DNA of 64,000 nt from an uncultured Dehalococcoidia bacterium (GTDB lineage Bacteria > Chloroflexota > Dehalococcoidia > Lucifugimonadales > UBA3495): contig OX638345.1 in the NCBI GenBank assembly GCA_951813535.1, forward strand, positions 4,270,608 to 4,334,607, given 5' to 3'. The notes under the pieces were generated by a model that was not told the origin of the DNA, ran no database searches, and was given only the letters and a program-made list of their open reading frames with translations. Shown in pieces: positions 6,610-58,170 of the stretch (position 1 is its first letter; each line of letters starts with the position of its first letter). A program made the translations under genes and the position numbers.

Positions 6610-6950
6610 ATGCGCTATGTTTACTGCCGTAGCGTATGGACGTTCCTGTGCTCTTTCACGTCTCAGGTGATTGCTAACCGTCCGCGTACTGTCCCCTGCG
6701 GTAATTGTAGCTGGCAACCGCCCTTCGACGGGCGCGGGATCGGGCGGAAAATCGTCCTCAGCGCGTGGCAATTCTTGTCGTCCCAAATCTCCAACGCATC
6801 GGCGCCTGCCAGTGCCCCGACGCACTGGACCAACCGTCGTCGCGAAAAGCGACGTCCTTGGGCTGCTTGCTACCAGTATTTCAGTAGTATAGCATCGGCC
6901 CCGTTCAGCCAGCCGAACCCATTCCTGCGTACCACCACGGAGGCAACCCC

Positions 6951-7904
6951 ATGCCCGTCACCTTTGGATGCTCGCTGCCCAGCCGGGGAGCCATGGCCTC
7001 TCCCGACAACCTGCGCAGCCTCGCCCAGCGCGCCGAGGACCTGTCCTTCGACCACGTCTGGGTCAGCGACCACATCATCATCCCCCACGAGGTCTCGTCC
7101 TTCTATCCCTACGCCGCCGACGGCGTGGCGCCCTTCCAGCGGGACAACACCTACTTCGAGCCCCTGGCCGCGTTGAACTTCCTCGCCGGCTGCACCACCC
7201 GCGTCCGGCTGGGCACCCACGTGCTCATCCTGCCTTACCGCAACCCCGTGCTCACCGCCAAGATCCTCGCCACCCTCGACGTGCTCAGCGGCGGCCGCCT
7301 GATCCTGGGCGCCGGCGTCGGCTGGATGGAGGAGGAGTTCCAGGCCATGGGCCTCGACACCTACGCCCAGCGCGGCCAGGTAACCGACGAGTACATTCAG
7401 ATCTTCAAGGAACTCTGGACCTCCGACAACCCCGAGTTCCACGGCGAGCACTACGACATCAGCGGCGCCGGTTTCCTCCCCAAGCCCGTGCAGAAGCCGC
7501 ACCCACCCATCTGGATCGGCGGCCACACCAACCCGGCCATCCGCCGCGCCGCCACCCTGGGCGACGGCTGGATGCCCATCGGCCTGCGCCCGCCGGCCAT
7601 CCTCGAGCCCGAGGAACTGGCGGAGAAGATCGCCCGCCTGCGCCGGGTCAGCGCCCGCGCCGGCCGCGACGAAAACGCCGTGGACCTGGTCTTCAGCACC
7701 GACTGCGTGTTCCACGACGCGCCGCAGTCCGACCGCCGCCTGGTATCCGGCATCCCCGAGCAGATCGCCGCCGACCTCCGCCAGTACCAGGACCTGGGCG
7801 TGCAGCACTTCATCTTCAGCTTTCCCGCCGAAACCGCCGCCCAGCAGCAGGAAGCCATGGAGCGCTTCTCTCGCGAGGTCATGCCGCTCATCCCCAACGA
7901 TTAA
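6951..7904 (+). CDS. LLM class flavin-dependent oxidoreductase (F420-type)
   Basis: Luciferase-like monooxygenase fold, 317 residues. Motifs: FDHVWVSDHIIIP near residue 32, RVRLGTHVLILPYRNPV near 83-98, LSGGRLILGAGVGWMEEEF near 110-128, and the flavin or F420 loop PHPPIWIGGHTNPAIRRAA near 183-200. It most resembles the TIGR03619 F420-dependent group; the substrate is unknown. A strong RBS GGAGG lies 10 bp before ATG 6951. Convergent with the APH-fold gene, with a hairpin at 7944-7973 between them. One of five LLM genes in the window. Confidence 0.92.
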   Translation: MPVTFGCSLPSRGAMASPDNLRSLAQRAEDLSFDHVWVSDHIIIPHEVSSFYPYAADGVAPFQRDNTYFEPLAALNFLAGCTTRVRLGTHVLILPYRNPVLTAKILATLDVLSGGRLILGAGVGWMEEEFQAMGLDTYAQRGQVTDEYIQIFKELWTSDNPEFHGEHYDISGAGFLPKPVQKPHPPIWIGGHTNPAIRRAATLGDGWMPIGLRPPAILEPEELAEKIARLRRVSARAGRDENAVDLVFSTDCVFHDAPQSDRRLVSGIPEQIAADLRQYQDLGVQHFIFSFPAETAAQQQEAMERFSREVMPLIPND

Positions 7905-24852: not shown

Positions 24853-25533
24853 ATGAGTGACCAGCGCGCATATCATCTGACGCAGTTTTACGAACTGCTA
24901 GCCCAATTGGAGCGTAATCTCGGTGACGCGCGCAGGCTGTCGAACTGTTCCGGGCAAATGGCCTGGCCGCAACGTGGCGTCTATTTCTTTCGGGAAACAG
25001 GGGAAATCCGTACCGATACTGGAAACGGCCTCCGCATCGTGCTGGTGGGAACCCACGCGCTCAAAGCCGGCGCCAAAGCCACGCTTTGGAACCGGCTTTC
25101 GCAGCATCAAGGCAATGCCGGTGGCAGCGGAGGCAGTCATCGAGGATCCATATTCCGGTTGATTGTCGGGGCGGCTCTCATTCAGCGAGATGGCTGGGTT
25201 TTCCCATGCTGGGGGCAACTCAATAATGCTTCCAGCGTCGTTAGGGAAAGTGAGCGGCCTATGGAGAGGGCAGTATGCGCCGCCATCTGCAATATGCCCT
25301 TCTTGTGGCTGCCAGTTGAGGACGAACCGGGTCCAAACAGCCTGCGGGGGTACATCGAACGCAACTCCATCGGGCTGCTCAGCAACTATCGAAAAACTCC
25401 GATTGACTCGCCATCTCCAGGTTGGCTGGGGAAATACAGTGACCGGGACCGCGTCAGGCTGTCCGGACTTTGGAACTCTAACCACGTTGATGACGACTAT
25501 GCCCGGTATTTCTGGATGCTATGCAGCGATTGA
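24853..25533 (+). CDS. GIY-YIG-like nuclease domain protein
   Basis: 226 residues. RGVYFFRETGE (GVY at 42-44) and RIVLVGTHALKAGAKATLWNRL (VG at 65-66, conserved-type R81) follow the spacing of GIY-YIG nucleases (GIY ... YIG ... R). The second half is not recognised, though ERNSIGLLSN could carry the domain's late polar residue. Predicted DNA-cutting; substrate unknown. The YaaA-like gene starts 24 bp downstream and the HEPN-like gene follows, giving a possible three-gene module. Confidence 0.65.
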   Translation: MSDQRAYHLTQFYELLAQLERNLGDARRLSNCSGQMAWPQRGVYFFRETGEIRTDTGNGLRIVLVGTHALKAGAKATLWNRLSQHQGNAGGSGGSHRGSIFRLIVGAALIQRDGWVFPCWGQLNNASSVVRESERPMERAVCAAICNMPFLWLPVEDEPGPNSLRGYIERNSIGLLSNYRKTPIDSPSPGWLGKYSDRDRVRLSGLWNSNHVDDDYARYFWMLCSD

Positions 25534-25557
25534 TCGAACGAATGAGAGCCGCCAACC

Positions 25558-26229
25558 ATGGCTGATAACATAGTCGTCATCCAATGCGCTGGCCGCAAAC
25601 AACCGAACGCCGGCCATCTCCGAAACAGCGACGGGCGCAATGTAATGTTCGTGGCCAAGCCTGACTTGGCCCCGGCTACTCTCGGCTACGTCTATACTCA
25701 CCCTGACGATCGGGCGGACACCGGCCTTTCATGGCGGGAAGAGCTGCAGCGGTACAACCAGGAACAGGCGACGGACAATCCGTTGGGATTGTTGCCGGCC
25801 TGGCGACTCTACCAAAACCCGACCTACGAGCTGCTTTACCGGAAGTACGGGCCAGATGACCTTTACGTCCTTTCGGCGGGCTGGGGCTTGCTGCGGGCGG
25901 ATTTTTTGACTCCAGCCTATGACATTACGTTCAGCACTGCCAAAAATATTGACAAGTACAAGCGCCGCGGCAAGCAAGACTCCTATGATGATCTTCATAT
26001 GCTGCCGTCCGACACCACCCAGCCGGTGGTGTTCTTCGGCGGCAAGGACTACGTGAGCCTGTTCTGCGCACTGACCCATCAGGTGAAAAGCCCTCGGCAC
26101 GTGATCTACAATGCAATCAAGCCGCCCAATGCGCCAGGTTGCCAGATCCGCAAGTTTGAGACCACGACCAAAACCAACTGGCACTACAGAGCCGCCCGCG
26201 TGTTCGCAAAAGGGCGCATGGATCAGTAA
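25558..26229 (+). CDS. YaaA/DUF6884-like protein
   Basis: 223 residues. VVIQCAGRKQPNAG at the N-terminus and DDLYVLSAGWGLLRADFLTPAYDITFS near 100-125 resemble the core of the YaaA/DUF6884 superfamily (ALSAxHGLL...PYD). VVFFGGKDYVSLFCAL near 160 looks like the following Rossmann-like strand. YaaA relatives bind DNA or are linked to nucleobase chemistry, but nothing specific can be said. Placed between GIY-YIG-like and HEPN-like genes on one strand. Start ATG 25558. Confidence 0.6.
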   Translation: MADNIVVIQCAGRKQPNAGHLRNSDGRNVMFVAKPDLAPATLGYVYTHPDDRADTGLSWREELQRYNQEQATDNPLGLLPAWRLYQNPTYELLYRKYGPDDLYVLSAGWGLLRADFLTPAYDITFSTAKNIDKYKRRGKQDSYDDLHMLPSDTTQPVVFFGGKDYVSLFCALTHQVKSPRHVIYNAIKPPNAPGCQIRKFETTTKTNWHYRAARVFAKGRMDQ

Positions 26230-42045: not shown

Positions 42046-42438
42046 TCACGGGACATCCCGCGTATGCGGCGGGTCGACCGGATAGTCCTCCCGCCGCCCG
42101 GTATCGCCTTCCTGAATGATAAAGTCGCGACGGTCCCGATACAAGCGCGCCCGATTCAGCACCACCTCTTGCTCATCGTCCCCGTCGTCCAGCACGGACT
42201 TGATCGTGTCACCGTCCGCCATGAACCAGTATTTGTAATCGCCTACGAACAGATAAACATTGTCCATGACGAAGAACCGGGCCGGCACGCCCTCCCCGTT
42301 GCGAAAGCGCTCGCACACCGCCTCCAGCAACTCCCGCTGCCCATCCTTCTGCAACAGCACATACTCATGCGGCCAAGTCTCCCGGTAGGTGACGGCCTCC
42401 CGCCAAGGCGCGGAAGCGATCAGATCAGTGAGTTTCAT
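42046..42438 (-). CDS. Hypothetical protein coupled to a DUF4268 gene
   Basis: 130 residues. LTDLIASAPWREAVTYRETWPHEYVLL, RFRNGEGVPARFFVMDNVYLFVGDYKYWFMAD and NRARLYRDRRDFIIQEGD. The ordered alpha/beta make-up and aromatic core suggest a real, widespread protein, but I cannot name a family. ATG 42438 overlaps the DUF4268 stop by 4 bp (ATGA), so the two are made together. Confidence 0.7.
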   Translation of the reverse strand: MKLTDLIASAPWREAVTYRETWPHEYVLLQKDGQRELLEAVCERFRNGEGVPARFFVMDNVYLFVGDYKYWFMADGDTIKSVLDDGDDEQEVVLNRARLYRDRRDFIIQEGDTGRREDYPVDPPHTRDVP

Positions 42439-43442
42439 GAGCCTCCTTCCATCGCGGTTGGACAGAACTCTTCCATCACTTTCTCAAGCCGTGGCTGCAT
42501 AATATTCTTTAGCTCCACAATATTATTGCACATCCAGTCTCTTATCTCGTCCAGAGACTGGTCAGGATCCCCGAGATAACCATCTCGAGTCATCCCGACG
42601 CTGGACCGACGCCAGCCGCCGTGTTGCCCTATTACATCAAACTGGAGGTCTGGCAATTCGCGCTCCAACTCTAATCTATACTCGCTTAGCGCATCGAAAA
42701 TACGACCGCTTTCGGCGCGGCTGCCGACGGAAATTGAGAGGAACACAAAAGGCCTGCTCCATTCAAAACCGGCATTGTACGCAACGCCGGGGAAGCCGGA
42801 CGGAAACGATTGACTTCGTCCTGCCAGCGGAGCCATCCTGTCCGTAAACCCTTTGTTGCGCAGGTCTCGTAAAAGCCGCTGGAAAAATGCCTGCCGCTTT
42901 TGTGGTAAGTTTGCCTGCTCCTCTGGTGTGAGAACCGGCGCCTTGGGCCAGTTGTTGTGTAGGTCTATCGAAGAGAAGACCGCGTGAAATCCCGGAGCGT
43001 CTGGATGGCTATTGATGGGCCTCAAATTGCCGTCAGGGACGAGGCTTGCAACAACCGCGTAGAATTCTTTCTTGCCGTCCATGGCCTCTTTTAGCCATCC
43101 GAGTTGTCGTTGGTGATATTCCGAGAAAAATGGCGTCACCCAGACCAGAATGTCCGCATCACAATCGGCGGCGTAGCCGATAAGCCTGGCGAAATGGTCA
43201 TTATCAGAGGGCTCGATTTGGTTCTCGATAGCAACTTTGCCCTTGCCTGTAACCTCCGCCAGTATGTCCAGATACCCGGACCAGCCGGACGCTTCTGTCT
43301 GAATCAGCGACAGCTCCATACCAATCGCTTTGCCCAGCAGGTGCAGATTGCTCGCGAGCCAAGGTGTGAAGTCAAGCGTTTCGTTGGGCCAAATATCCCG
43401 CAGACTCACCGGTTCCGGCTCGCCAGGATTTCCGCTCTGCAT
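42435..43442 (-). CDS. DUF4268 domain protein, PD-(D/E)XK nuclease-like
   Basis: 335 residues. SGYLDILAEVTGKGKVAIENQIEPSD near 53-80 is the DUF4268-type site (D, then E-N-Q), followed by HFARLIGYAADCDADILVWVTPFF near 82-105. The C-terminal 200 residues include FEWSRPFVFLSISVGSRA and are the DUF4268 domain proper. Likely a DNA-acting enzyme in defence or restriction context, catalytic lysine not obvious. AT-richer than the flanking metabolic genes. Start ATG 43442. Confidence 0.82.
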   Translation of the reverse strand: MQSGNPGEPEPVSLRDIWPNETLDFTPWLASNLHLLGKAIGMELSLIQTEASGWSGYLDILAEVTGKGKVAIENQIEPSDNDHFARLIGYAADCDADILVWVTPFFSEYHQRQLGWLKEAMDGKKEFYAVVASLVPDGNLRPINSHPDAPGFHAVFSSIDLHNNWPKAPVLTPEEQANLPQKRQAFFQRLLRDLRNKGFTDRMAPLAGRSQSFPSGFPGVAYNAGFEWSRPFVFLSISVGSRAESGRIFDALSEYRLELERELPDLQFDVIGQHGGWRRSSVGMTRDGYLGDPDQSLDEIRDWMCNNIVELKNIMQPRLEKVMEEFCPTAMEGGS

Positions 43443-52151: not shown

Positions 52152-53102
52152 ATGACTACTATTGCCCCTGAACTCAACCTGCCCCCGGATCACCCGCTGC
52201 GGCAGATCCTCGATACCATCGCCGCGCATCCTGAGGTGCGCGAGCCGGTGCTGCGCGTCCTGCTTACCGAGGACTTCCTGGCTCTGCCGGCGCGGGCGGA
52301 TGCGCTAACGGAGCAGGTGCAGGGGTTGCGAGAAGAATTTGGCGGCTTTCGCGAGGAAACCCGCCAGCAGTTCCTCGCTGTCCACGAGCGCATTGACGAA
52401 ACCAATCACTCTCTGGGTGAGCGCATTGACGACACCAATCGTTCCCTGGGTGAGCGCATCGACGAAACCAATCGCTCTCTGGGTGAGCGCATCGACGAAA
52501 CCAATCGCTCTCTGGGTGAGCGCATCGACGAAACCAATCGCTCTCTGGGTGAGCGCATCGACGAAACCAATCGCTCTCTGGGTGAGCGCATCGACGAAAC
52601 CAATCGCTCTCTGGGCGAGCGCATCGACGAAAGCCGCCGAGACGTCATCAGTCAAATAAACGGTTCCATCGGGCGGTTGCGCGGCGAGACCTACGAAAGG
52701 AAGTGCGCCGAGAAGCTTGACACCATCCTGGTTGACCACTTCCGCTATGCCGTAGAGTATGATCGGACCGCGATTATCGACCGGCTGGTTCAGGCGCGCC
52801 ATGACCGCCTGATCAGCCGCGCGGAATACCTTGACGCACGCAGCGTTGACATCGTCGCTCAGGAAAAAGCTGGCTACGACGAGGACCAGCACCTGGCCGC
52901 CGTCGAGGTATCGATCACCTTCAATCGGGACGATTTGGAAACGGCTGCCCGACGGGCCGCGATAGTCGGCCGGGTTTTTGGTCTCAGAACAGACGCCTTT
53001 GTCGCAACCAACGGCGCCTGGCCTGATGAAGTAAACGAAGTAGCTCGACAGTTGGGCGTCACTATCGTCCGGCATTTCCTGCCGGAATTCGCCGCGGAAT
53101 AG
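52152..53102 (+). CDS. Coiled-coil protein with hendecad repeats and nuclease-like C-terminus
   Basis: 316 residues. Helical N-terminus, then eight ERID(E/D)(T/S) starts of an 11-residue repeat (ERIDETNRSLG) from about 79 to 160, and a C-terminal alpha/beta domain: VEYDRTAIIDRLVQARHDRL, HLAAVEVSITFNRDDLETAARRAA, and NEVARQLGVTIVRHFLPEF. The C-terminal half is related to the gene at 27686. The D...AVEVS pattern might be a PD-(D/E)XK remnant. The repeat should form a right-handed-tending coiled coil whose length can vary by slippage. Confidence 0.65.
   Translation: MTTIAPELNLPPDHPLRQILDTIAAHPEVREPVLRVLLTEDFLALPARADALTEQVQGLREEFGGFREETRQQFLAVHERIDETNHSLGERIDDTNRSLGERIDETNRSLGERIDETNRSLGERIDETNRSLGERIDETNRSLGERIDETNRSLGERIDESRRDVISQINGSIGRLRGETYERKCAEKLDTILVDHFRYAVEYDRTAIIDRLVQARHDRLISRAEYLDARSVDIVAQEKAGYDEDQHLAAVEVSITFNRDDLETAARRAAIVGRVFGLRTDAFVATNGAWPDEVNEVARQLGVTIVRHFLPEFAAE
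52385..52640. repeat. 33-bp tandem repeat, about 7.5 units
   Basis: GAGCGCATCGACGAAACCAA followed by TCGCTCTCTGGGT, 33 bp, repeated in frame. The first two units and the last partial unit have diverged; the middle five are almost identical, so expansion is recent. There are no spacers, so this is not CRISPR. Confidence 0.92.
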
Positions 53103-53522: not shown

Positions 53523-54608
53523 TCACCCCGTCAAATCGCTCACCCGCGGCGCCACCTCCTCGGCGATCAGCCGCAGGCAGTCCATCTCCCACTGGTGGTC
53601 GTCCGGATCCTGCGTGATGCACAGCAGGTGCCCGAACCCGCCGACGCCATCGTAAAGCTGCCGGATCCGCTGGGCGCACTCGTCCGGATCGCCCACGATC
53701 CAGATGTTCTCCATCATGTAGTCGACGGTCAGGTCGTCGTCGCTCATATTCGGGTCGATCTTGGTGGCTTGGATCAGCCCCGACCCCAACCGGTTGGGCA
53801 GCTGATGCTGCAGGTAGTTGCGTCCCAACACTGCGTAGGCCCGTTCCCTCGCCTCCTCGCTGGTCTCCGCCACGAACACGTCCCGTCCGATGCGCCAGTC
53901 GGAGCGGCTGGCCTCCCGGCCGGCCTCGGCGGCGGCATCTTCCACCGTGGTCCAGTGGTCCGCCAGGTACTGCGGCGCCAGGTTGCTGCTGCTCATGGGA
54001 ATGTAGCCCTCGCGTCCGGCGACCCGGATGCTGCTGCTTCCGATGGACGTGGCGGCCACGCCGATGGGCGGGTGCGGCTGTTGCAGCGGCTTCATGTGCA
54101 GCCCCCGCTCCAGCACCGGGTCCAGCTCCGGCGCCTCGATGTCGAAGAACTCCCCGTGATACGAGAACTGCCCCTCCGACGCCCACAGGCTCAACACGAC
54201 GTCCAGCACTTCGGCGGCCCGCCGTCGCACGTCGTCGCCCTGGCTCGGGTCCATTCCGAAAAGCTGCAGGTCGGTGGGTATCGCCCGGTGCCCGATGCCC
54301 CAGTACAGCCGGCCCCGCGTCAGATGGTCCAGCATGGCGATCCGGTGCGCCAGCTCGATGGGGTTGTGGATGGGCAGCAGCGTCACCCCCGTGGCCAGCC
54401 GGATGTTCTCCGTCATGGCCGAAGCCTTGGCGATCAGCAGGTCCGGGAACGGCGCATTCTCCCAGCGCTCGGTGAGGTGCTCGCCGATCCACGCCTCGTG
54501 GAACCCCAGCCGGTCGGCCTCCTGCAGCAGGTCAAGGTCCCGGTCGTAGGAATCGGCGTAGGAACGGTGCGGCGGATGCAGCGGCATCATGAACAGGCCG
54601 AATTGCAT
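53523..54608 (-). CDS. LLM class flavin-dependent oxidoreductase
   Basis: 361 residues. MQFGLFMMPLHPPHRSY at the start, FHEAWIGEHLTERWE near 35, IRLATGVTLLPIHNPIELAHR near 69, TRGRLYWGIGHRAIPTDLQLFG near 95, and QQPHPPIGVAATSIGSSSIR near 175, WIVGDPDECAQRIRQLY near 305. Substrate unknown. RBS AAGGAGT lies before ATG 54608. Upstream lies the ATPase-nuclease pair on the same strand, 66 bp away. Confidence 0.92.
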   Translation of the reverse strand: MQFGLFMMPLHPPHRSYADSYDRDLDLLQEADRLGFHEAWIGEHLTERWENAPFPDLLIAKASAMTENIRLATGVTLLPIHNPIELAHRIAMLDHLTRGRLYWGIGHRAIPTDLQLFGMDPSQGDDVRRRAAEVLDVVLSLWASEGQFSYHGEFFDIEAPELDPVLERGLHMKPLQQPHPPIGVAATSIGSSSIRVAGREGYIPMSSSNLAPQYLADHWTTVEDAAAEAGREASRSDWRIGRDVFVAETSEEARERAYAVLGRNYLQHQLPNRLGSGLIQATKIDPNMSDDDLTVDYMMENIWIVGDPDECAQRIRQLYDGVGGFGHLLCITQDPDDHQWEMDCLRLIAEEVAPRVSDLTG

Positions 54609-54674: not shown

Positions 54675-55178
54675 CTACAGCAGCCGCCGTACCGGGTAAT
54701 CGGGAAAGTTCCGGTTCCAAGCGTCGATGTTGAACACGCCGCAGCCGCTGACAAGCGGTCTGGTCCAAGTCACCGAACTCGGCAACTGCAACGGCAGAAT
54801 GCGCTCCAGAGCATTAGTCCGGCGCAGCATATCCCCGGAGCTCAAATCGTGCTGAGCAATCAGTACCAGATAGTAAATCGCTTTGTCTGCCCAGCCAGAC
54901 GCCCATTCGTACAGAAACGAATCACGGTACTTGTACTTTAACTCTTCGTCACGCTGGCCCTCTTCAAAGCTTCTCAAAAACTCGGCGCGAGCTTGCCGCG
55001 GTATATCGGGAGCATCTGGGTCTTTGAACTCGATGAACAAATAGTGATCAGGAAATTCGAGGATGAAATCCACCGCTTTCATACAATGACTGAGCCCGTG
55101 GCCGTCATCGTCGAACTTGCGAGCGTTCACCGCGCCCTGAATCGAAATTTGTAGATTGCCCTCCGTAAGCGCGATCAT
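54675..55178 (-). CDS. PD-(D/E)XK nuclease-like protein paired with an AAA ATPase
   Basis: 167 residues. E6 (TEGNLQISIQGA), then A-V-D37-FILEFPDHYLFI-E50-F-K52, the D-x(n)-E-x-K signature of the PD-(D/E)XK fold. A helical second half follows (AEFLRSFEEGQRDEELKYKYRD). ATG 55178 overlaps the ATPase stop by 4 bp (ATGA). With its ATPase partner it forms a compact two-gene unit of the kind often found in phage defence; that role is inferred. No family name recognised. AT-richer than its neighbours. Confidence 0.75.
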   Translation of the reverse strand: MIALTEGNLQISIQGAVNARKFDDDGHGLSHCMKAVDFILEFPDHYLFIEFKDPDAPDIPRQARAEFLRSFEEGQRDEELKYKYRDSFLYEWASGWADKAIYYLVLIAQHDLSSGDMLRRTNALERILPLQLPSSVTWTRPLVSGCGVFNIDAWNRNFPDYPVRRLL

Positions 55179-56182
55179 CGCTTCAATCCGCCCAGGCTCC
55201 GCTGGATCTGACGGTCGTAAAGGTCGTCAAAAGCCTCGTCAATCGCGTTGGGGTGTATGTCCAGGTAACTTCCAGTACTGCGGCACCCTATCTCGCCGTC
55301 CTCATCCCGGTACAGCGAATGGAACGCCACCACGTCCTCCTCCGTCATCTGCAGGTCCAGCTCCTTGAGGATCACGTAGTCATGCGTCGCAAAGAATACC
55401 TGCACCCCCGCCCGCTGCAACTCCAGCAGCACCTCGATCACCACGCGAAACATCTTGGGGTTCAGGTTGGCCTCCGGCTCATCCCAGAAAAGCACCGACC
55501 CTTTCTGCAAAGTCCCATTCCGTATCAACAGCCACAGTAACCCCAGCTTCCGCCACCCCTCCGCCAGCAGGGTGAACTCGAGGTTGCCCTGCTCATTGCT
55601 CAGGAAGAACTCCTCGCCGCTGACCGTAACCTTGCCACCGATCACGTACTCTAGATTTTCAAGCAATTGTTGGTGGGCGTCATCGGTCAGTTCACGCAGA
55701 GCAGGGAGGTTTGCCCGAAGCAAAATATCCCGATAAACCTCTTCAAAATGAACTTCGCGCGCTTCGTAAAGCGACAAAAACCCTGGCGCGTTTGCCAGCA
55801 TGTTTTTCGCTGGGATGTAAACGCTTTTCATATCCGGTCTTTGCGGGTCCGTCGGTGTGGTTGCGTATCTCGTGTCACGTCCAGTCAAAGAGCAACGAAC
55901 GTGCCACACGCCTACGTGGACTTCGACAGATCCTCCAACTGCCTCATACCCCTGCCGGACCAATCGCCCACTCGCGCGACCCGAGGGAAGGAACACCCCA
56001 ACCAACTTTTGGGCGAGGGACCTGTCTTCTGTGCCGTAGTTACACGCCGCATAGCACGCCTTCATCAAGTGAGTCTTCCCCGTCCCGTTCGCACCAACCA
56101 GCGCATTGATGCCGGGCGAAAACTCCACCTCCAAGTCCTTGAAGGCGGTGAAATTCTTCAACTTTATCTTCGTAACAGGCAT
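55175..56182 (-). CDS. AAA family (AAA15/SMC-like) ATPase
   Basis: 335 residues. KIKLKNFTAFKDLEVEFSPGINALVGANGTGKTH: Walker A G30-x4-G35-K36-T37. LLAEGWRKLGLLWLL near 206 takes the ABC-signature place. Walker B VLFWDEPEANLNP with D234-E235, and the H-loop FFATHDY with H267. Residues 60-200 form the insertion expected for OLD-like ATPases, but no TOPRIM domain follows. ATG 56182 matches the family start; an upstream in-frame extension has none. Coupled by ATGA overlap to the nuclease gene. Confidence 0.88.
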   Translation of the reverse strand: MPVTKIKLKNFTAFKDLEVEFSPGINALVGANGTGKTHLMKACYAACNYGTEDRSLAQKLVGVFLPSGRASGRLVRQGYEAVGGSVEVHVGVWHVRCSLTGRDTRYATTPTDPQRPDMKSVYIPAKNMLANAPGFLSLYEAREVHFEEVYRDILLRANLPALRELTDDAHQQLLENLEYVIGGKVTVSGEEFFLSNEQGNLEFTLLAEGWRKLGLLWLLIRNGTLQKGSVLFWDEPEANLNPKMFRVVIEVLLELQRAGVQVFFATHDYVILKELDLQMTEEDVVAFHSLYRDEDGEIGCRSTGSYLDIHPNAIDEAFDDLYDRQIQRSLGGLKR

Positions 56183-56318
56183 GGTGCTTCCTCGTAGTAT
56201 CGGGCCCTTTTCGATGCTAGTCCTGCCCTCCGCCAACTGTCAAACCGGCCCATGCCGCCCTCAAGACCCCCGTGTATAATCGATTCATCTCCCGAATAAA
56301 CACCGCAGGTTCACACCC

Positions 56319-57152
56319 ATGCCCTTCTTCAAACGCCGCCCCGGCATCGCCGTCGTCGAAATGCACGGCGTCATCGGCGCCGCCATCAAGGAACCCGACT
56401 ACTCGCGCATCCTCGAGCGCGTCGCCAACAACCGCAAGATCGGCGCCCTGGTGCTGGACATCGACTCCCCAGGCGGCTCGGCCACCGCCAGCGACCTGAT
56501 CTACGAGAACGTCCGCCGCGTCGCGCAGCGCAAACCCGTGGTCGCCTACATTCGCGGCCTGGGCGCATCCGGCGGATACTACATCGCCTGCGGAGCCGGA
56601 ACCATCATGGCCTCCCGCGCCGCCCTGGTGGGCTCCATCGGCGTGATCTACATGCGCCCCATTGTCGAGCAGTTGCTGAGCAAGGTCGGCGTGGAGATCT
56701 CCATCTTCAAGGGCGGACGCCTCAAGGATATGTCCGGCTTCTGGCGCCATCCCACCGACGAGGAAGCGGACAAGTTCCAGGACCTCATCGGCCAGATCTA
56801 TTCCCTGTTCGTGTCCGTCGTCTCCGACAGCCGCAATATGACCACGGAAGAGGCGACCGACCTCGCCACTGGCGAACTCTTCACCGCCCCTTCCGCGCGC
56901 GAGCGCCGCCTCATCGACCGCACAGGCAATTTCGACGACGCCGTCGCCGAGGCCATGCGCCTCAGCGGCGCCCGTCGCAGGATACGCAGATTCCGACCCA
57001 AGCGCCCGTTTATGGAACGGCTCAGCCCCTTCCGTGGGTCCACCGCTCAGTGGCGCGCCCTGTCCGGCCTAGCCGCGATGGCCTCCGGCGGCATCTACAT
57101 GCTGGAACCCGGGTTCTTGGGATACGGCCTGACCCACACCGGCGACGACTGA
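56319..57152 (+). CDS. S49 family signal peptide peptidase (SppA-like)
   Basis: 277 residues. IAVVEMHGVIGA at 10-21, VLDIDSPGGSATAS at 45-58, nucleophile S84 in RGLGASGGYYIACGA, and the general-base lysine K136 in KGGRLKDMS. Digests leftover signal peptides or membrane fragments. No N-terminal membrane segment, but a hydrophobic C-terminal stretch (AMASGGIYMLEPGFLGYGL) near 250-270. Divergent from the ATPase-nuclease pair. Convergent with mazG, 9 bp apart. Confidence 0.92.
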   Translation: MPFFKRRPGIAVVEMHGVIGAAIKEPDYSRILERVANNRKIGALVLDIDSPGGSATASDLIYENVRRVAQRKPVVAYIRGLGASGGYYIACGAGTIMASRAALVGSIGVIYMRPIVEQLLSKVGVEISIFKGGRLKDMSGFWRHPTDEEADKFQDLIGQIYSLFVSVVSDSRNMTTEEATDLATGELFTAPSARERRLIDRTGNFDDAVAEAMRLSGARRRIRRFRPKRPFMERLSPFRGSTAQWRALSGLAAMASGGIYMLEPGFLGYGLTHTGDD

Positions 57153-58027: not shown

Positions 58028-58170
58028 CAGGGCCTGTGCAAAGTCGATTCCGGCGGCAAATGTCAGAATCAGAATTTACCGGATTTTGACATTTTCAGGA
58101 TGTTCATAAATCCCGAAAATCTTCTAATCCTGGCAATCCTGATTCTGACAATGACTTTGCACCAGCCCTG
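58028..58170. mobile_element. MITE-like element C (143 bp) with perfect 9-bp target duplication
   Basis: Left end CAGGGCCTGTGCAAAGTC (58028-58045) and inverted right end CAGGGCTGGTGCAAAGTC (58153-58170) match at 16 of 18 positions. Both flanks are GCGCGTTCG (58019-58027 and 58171-58179), an intact 9-bp duplication. The interior is AT-rich with GTCAGAATCAGAATTT and an inverted ATTCTGAC, unlike elements A and B. No coding capacity. Probably the youngest of the three. Confidence 0.85.

Follow-up and report, generated by a model that had tools for sequence, protein, structure and literature searches.

The window analyzed here, i.e., a 64,000-nucleotide stretch of contig OX638345.1 from an uncultured Dehalococcoidia bacterium, carries two overlapping genes on its minus strand. 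The upstream gene (55175–56182, ATG at 56182, stop at 55175) encodes protein A, a 335-aa SMC/Rad50/PtuA-like ABC ATPase of the HEC-02A type, and the downstream gene (54675–55178, ATG at 55178, stop at 54675) encodes protein B, a 167-aa predicted stand-alone PD-(D/E)XK-type nuclease of the HEC-02B type. The stop codon of A and the start codon of B share an ATGA (55175–55178, minus strand) consistent with translational coupling, and this −4 overlap was also the commonest A–B spacing elsewhere (66 of 92 A–B records, a few of which were fetched twice). Protein A displays a Walker A motif (GANGTGK36T), a Walker B motif (LFWD234E235), and an H-loop (H267), while protein B contains a candidate catalytic motif, D37 ... 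E50-F-K52. Both reading frames, their motifs, and the overlap had been described in an earlier note on this DNA and were recovered unchanged at these minus-strand coordinates. A candidate promoter upstream of A (TTGACA-18-TAGCAT, 56214–56243, minus strand) was suggestive, being a single consensus match for a chance expectation of 0.8. The pair is also AT-richer than its surroundings, as had been proposed, with a GC content of 0.56 for A and 0.54 for B compared to 0.67 and 0.66 for the adjoining genes and 0.63 for the window. Two further features named in the earlier note did not bear on the pair. The repeated, MITE-like hairpin is real (58061–58150), but lies ~1.9 kb away and exists in dozens of genomic copies (66 matches, both strands counted), so that it is uninformative here and was rejected as a mobility signal. 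Meanwhile, the presumed nuclease-like paralogues are Uma2-family proteins without kinship to B, and were discarded as paralogues given that B is single-copy in this genome.

Next, we evaluated the conservation and predicted structure of both proteins, using homologues gathered from 84,980 genomes. Across 71 A homologues, G30, D234, E235, and H267 were invariant and K36 was conserved in 70. For B, E50 was found in 76 of 76 homologues and K52 in 75 (R once); D37 was also present in all 76, a count biased by the fact that D37 falls within one of the search patterns used to gather homologues, and an independently found B homologue (L083) has N at this position. As judged from these alignments, the conservation of the putative catalytic residues of A and B is not due to chance. 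The AlphaFold2 model of A (pLDDT 87) was nearest to PtuA, Rad50, and SMC heads, with SMC heads scoring on par with PtuA (VIA-align Z 20.8 over 272 residues for an SMC head; Z 18–19 over ~300 residues for retron/Septu PtuA, best Z 19.1 over 302), and A shows sequence similarity to solved AriA chains. In the AlphaFold2 model of B (pLDDT 92.5, pTM 0.89), D37 opens strand 38–41 while E50 and K52 end strand 45–52, i.e., the model and the homologue alignment together display the alpha/beta core and D...(D/E)xK motif of PD-(D/E)XK enzymes. The top structural neighbor of B was the N.BspD6I nickase (Z 6.7, rmsd 3.7, 120 aligned), and others included the R.BspD6I small subunit, Can2, BsmI, FokI, EcoO109I, and McrC, mostly PD-(D/E)XK nucleases. 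Each of these matches is weak individually (Z < 7; Foldseek E no better than 0.006), and a search of the B sequence against solved structures returned nothing useful. Since the neighbors are uniform and the motif is conserved while each match is weak, we regard the assignment of B as a PD-(D/E)XK-type nuclease, resting on fold and motif, as good but not proven.

Overall, the two genes are strictly linked. In 78 of the 79 B-containing loci, B directly follows A on the same strand; these loci are distributed across Chloroflexota, Pseudomonadota, Planctomycetota, Acidobacteriota, Thermodesulfobacteriota, archaea, and other groups, and wherever B lacked an intact A, the locus was truncated or decayed (L123, L076). 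Outside the genus of the window, BREX operons often contain the pair. Among the 216 genes no more than two positions away from one of the 70-odd pairs, PADLOC identified 12 PglZ, along with PglX, BrxC, BrxA, BrxHI, and HEC-01, while some of the DrmD/HmaA/DpdE matches were cross-matches of the BrxHI helicase. Representative layouts include PglXI-A-B-BrxHI-PglZ (L045), BrxC-A-B-PglX (L068), and the Methylomonas plasmid pLM6, for which the record's own annotation reads brxC, A, B, then pglX, pglZ, and brxL; a conjugative Sphingobium plasmid shows the same layout with largely unnamed genes. Consistent with this setting, a 2026 BREX survey lists OLD-ABC ATPases paired with PD-(D/E)XK nucleases among BREX back-up effectors (PMC12839542). 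The phage records searched for homologues of the pair yielded no match, and occurrences on mobile elements comprised one viral contig and two plasmids. A viral-labelled IMG/VR contig (L133) encodes a homologue of B at 54% identity; a 344-aa open reading frame takes the place of A directly upstream, with an ATGA-type overlap, and large genes lie on either side, an arrangement resembling the BREX-embedded layout. Taken together, the pairing of an ATPase with a stand-alone PD-(D/E)XK-type nuclease that was proposed in the earlier note is supported, and the pair proves to be strictly linked and associated with defense operons elsewhere. Homologues occurring singly next to housekeeping genes, which would have spoken against it, were not the pattern observed, even though within this genus the pair itself does adjoin housekeeping-type genes.

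Both proteins match, over their full length, the profiles of a single catalogued candidate system in PADLOC-DB 2.0.0. Residues 1–331 of A align to positions 1–335 of 337 in the HEC-02A profile PDLC04213 (E = 6.8e-123, 408.5 bits), and residues 2–166 of B to positions 2–168 of 171 in the HEC-02B profile PDLC04229 (E = 3.6e-55). For A, the next non-HEC-02 model was AriA, with 72.9 bits (E = 1e-20) compared to 408.5 bits, PtuA profiles reached only ~42 bits, and Pfam matches were to AAA_21/AAA_15. For B, the only PADLOC matches were HEC-02B profiles; we found no match in Pfam, NCBIfam, or PHROG, and no PtuB/HNH profile match in PADLOC or Pfam. A Pfam scan of the 76 B homologues likewise returned stray weak matches only, four of the homologues matching the Shedu SduA C-terminal domain (best E = 0.01). 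A and B adjoin on the same strand as HEC-02 genes do, with the ATGA overlap and near-universal pairing described above. The pair is not embedded in another defense system in the window, its relatives being embedded in BREX, and we did not count embedding as a requirement for membership. Embedding is reportedly how the HEC-02 family came to light. The system is attributed to a 2024 preprint from Payne, Hughes, Fineran, and coworkers (10.1101/2024.01.29.577857). At the level of sequence, profile match and strict pairing place the pair within HEC-02, a candidate antiphage system that is already catalogued. The acronym denotes Hma-embedded candidate, and antiphage activity is stated for several HECs, with HEC-06 alone named, in a paper that cites this preprint (PMC12988326); no mechanism for HEC-02 was found in the literature searched. 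The system had been put forward as possibly undescribed, with a PADLOC search as the proposed check. Because both proteins match one named candidate system, an outcome that the note itself had listed as refuting, and because PD-(D/E)XK nucleases with OLD-ABC ATPases in BREX are already in print (PMC12839542), the undescribed status is struck off and the pair is tied to HEC-02 instead.

We then considered the setting of the pair within its own genus. On the left, it is bordered by a luciferase-like oxidoreductase gene (53523–54608, minus strand; 94–98% amino acid identity in 13 congeners), and on the right by a gene named from its sequence as an SppA-like S49 peptidase (56319–57152, plus strand), both outside of the system. 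The oxidoreductase gene adjoins the slot in each of the 13 congeners, and B is present in 9 of these 13 other genomes searched, including one remnant, while a tenth B match came from another genus of the same family. Two genomes (G308 and G303) display an empty slot, with the oxidoreductase and SppA-like genes ~0.2 kb apart and A–B absent, another (G311) has a different gene in the slot, and in G307 the oxidoreductase is present and A–B absent. The remnant (G306, L123:4748-5250) is a decayed pair in which the first ~77–79 residues of A are joined to the last ~87 of B (79–166). All 14 genomes of the genus lack PglZ, so that the pglZ/brxC linkage expected of a BREX component was not found there. 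Within this genus, the pair is thus free-standing in one fixed position on the chromosome, outside any defense island.

Several congeners also encode a ~235-aa protein in divergent orientation within the slot, with the SppA-like gene on one side and A, or else the oxidoreductase gene, on the other (L125:4997-5704, L117 ~6936-7697, L119:7653-8354; also L136 and L137). This protein has no Pfam or PADLOC match, contains an RxxxxH-like motif (RNQLLH or RSQLIH) recalling HEPN RNases, and is the one found in G311 without A–B. Among the 66 other genes of the window, PADLOC identified no described defense system, only single-gene or partial candidates. These include a protein matching the candidate PDC-S11 (42438–43442, minus strand, E = 1.4e-47), a gene matching PDC-M57B (6e-76), and two adjoining genes (24853–26226, plus strand), the second of which (25558–26226) weakly matches PDC-M57A and Pfam DUF6884; the genes at 24853–26226 are possibly a PDC-M57 candidate pair. 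Finally, a coiled-coil protein (52152–53102, plus strand) carries several near-identical 11-residue repeats (RIDETNRSLGE), is 46–56% identical or missing in congeners, and has a very weak PDDEXK_10 match (Pfam, E = 0.11).

The alleles found in this slot are far more divergent than its borders. Genes flanking the slot are 90–98% identical among congeners, with dS values of 0.3–0.5 to the window's copies in the closest congeners. In comparison, B is saturated (dS > 1.8 or not computable), dS for A ranges from 0.75 upward, and dS for A residues 201–300, including Walker B and the H-loop, is 0.4–1.1, with the caveat that single dS values are noisy because the segments are short. Residues 61–130 of A (55793–56002, minus strand) are hypervariable among congeners, with a mean pS of 0.73 and a mean dN of 0.55 compared to 0.40 and 0.02 for the oxidoreductase, and both this segment and B (mean dN 0.33) are mostly saturated at synonymous sites. 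The closest relatives of the two genes also conflict: the A of the window groups with that of G312 (98% SH-aLRT in a quick tree), while its B groups with that of G309 (100/99) and the B of G312 with that of G302 (100/98). Protein-level diversifying selection as the sole cause of this divergence is unlikely, since synonymous sites are saturated too. From these saturated synonymous sites and conflicting relatives, we infer that divergent alleles were brought in by recombination or replacement, which suggests repeated allele or segment replacement at the slot. Less probably, different copies were re-inserted independently at the same site. No significant correlation was detected between A-segment and B identity across congeners, and co-variation of A and B is therefore unsupported.

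To us, the element that looks new is this genus-level fixed slot with a hypervariable, sometimes lost pair. One tentative reading, which we hold to be somewhat short of an even chance, is that the genus keeps a swappable defense cassette, in which the ATPase core would diverge at approximately the level of the flanks while divergent B and A segments would be exchanged independently by recombination. If so, the A segments swapped would be residues 61–130 and the C-terminus, and sensor and effector parts would reassort between species. A series of diverged natural alleles at one slot, with flanks 90–98% identical and some slots empty or decayed, would be useful for finding the infection-sensing segment of the ATPase, and for asking whether A and B must match.

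As to function, the reading we find reasonably probable is that of a HEC-02 member acting as a Septu-like, ATP-gated nuclease effector, kept at a fixed slot where alleles are replaced by recombination. Specifically, A, as a compact SMC/Rad50-like ABC ATPase, would dimerize on ATP, bind B, and keep this PD-(D/E)XK nuclease inactive before infection. The ATP/DNA state of A would then shift in response to DNA arising from infection, to nucleotide depletion, or to a phage protein, upon which B would cut nucleic acid, most likely DNA, although DNA, RNA, and tRNA are all possible substrates. This logic would be that of Septu (PtuA–PtuB) with the effector position taken by an unrelated nuclease fold, and allele replacement is what a conflict with changing viruses would lead one to expect. 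That A gates B through ATP, that nucleic acid is cleaved on infection, and that the logic is Septu-like are what we infer, and the defense reading itself draws on the full-length HEC-02 matches, strict A–B order, conserved motifs, predicted folds, BREX embedding, patchiness, and saturated divergence. Counting against it are the location of the genus pair outside a defense island, the absence of PglZ from the 14 genomes, and the weak structural matches of B.

Several of these observations could be accommodated by other functions. The invariant Walker A, Walker B, and H-loop residues, which imply a working ATPase cycle, and the persistent location in BREX operons make it quite unlikely that the pair is a toxin-antitoxin-like unit, with B as a toxic nuclease that A would hold back in an ATP-dependent manner, and retained chiefly because the unit secures its own persistence. 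The obligate A-before-B order with overlap and the restriction of B without intact A to truncated or decayed loci would nonetheless fit such a unit, and this reading is compatible with the defense model. A restriction-like or DNA-repair nuclease that joined BREX loci as an accessory, i.e., a Rad50/SbcC-like DNA-end processor, would agree with a fold of A equally near SMC/Rad50 heads and PtuA, and with housekeeping-type neighbors in the genus. However, a housekeeping repair pair would not be expected in defense operons across phyla, nor to be AT-rich, saturated in divergence, and patchy within the genus, with some species lacking it or keeping a decayed copy, and we consider this function very unlikely. 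The PD-(D/E)XK superfamily mostly cuts DNA, which weighs against a PARIS-like mechanism whereby A would sense a phage protein (e.g., a BREX or restriction inhibitor) and free B for host RNA/tRNA cleavage and abortive infection. This mechanism is also at odds with the predicted PD-(D/E)XK-type rather than TOPRIM fold of B and with a genus that has no PglZ or BREX to guard, and is in our view unlikely, even though AriA ranks well among the PADLOC models outside HEC that A matches, solved AriA chains resemble A in sequence, and the frequent BREX embedding fits a BREX back-up guard, as argued for PARIS in the BREX survey (PMC12839542).

Compared to known systems, the pair shares with Lamassu, OLD, and Gabija an ABC-type ATPase coupled to a nuclease, with LmuA among the weak structural neighbors of B (Z 4.9), but has no long coiled-coil ATPase, third gene, fused TOPRIM, or helicase. 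PARIS (AriA–AriB) similarly comprises two genes and a related ATPase domain (AriA, E = 1e-20), whereas its AriB partner is a TOPRIM protein and B is not. The likeness to Septu lies in the two-gene combination of ATPase and nuclease and in the structural proximity of A to PtuA (best Z 19.1, with 302 residues aligned), although SMC heads score equally; yet B is of the PD-(D/E)XK type and not an HNH protein like PtuB, and A is shorter, with 335 aa compared to 465 aa for the 8ee4 PtuA. The OLD-ABC ATPase and PD-(D/E)XK-REase dyads of BREX (PMC12839542) resemble the BREX-embedded relatives of the pair in both composition and setting. Finally, HEC-02 is matched full-length by both proteins and is likewise a two-gene unit, embedded in defense operons, while the pair in this genus is free-standing between housekeeping-type genes.
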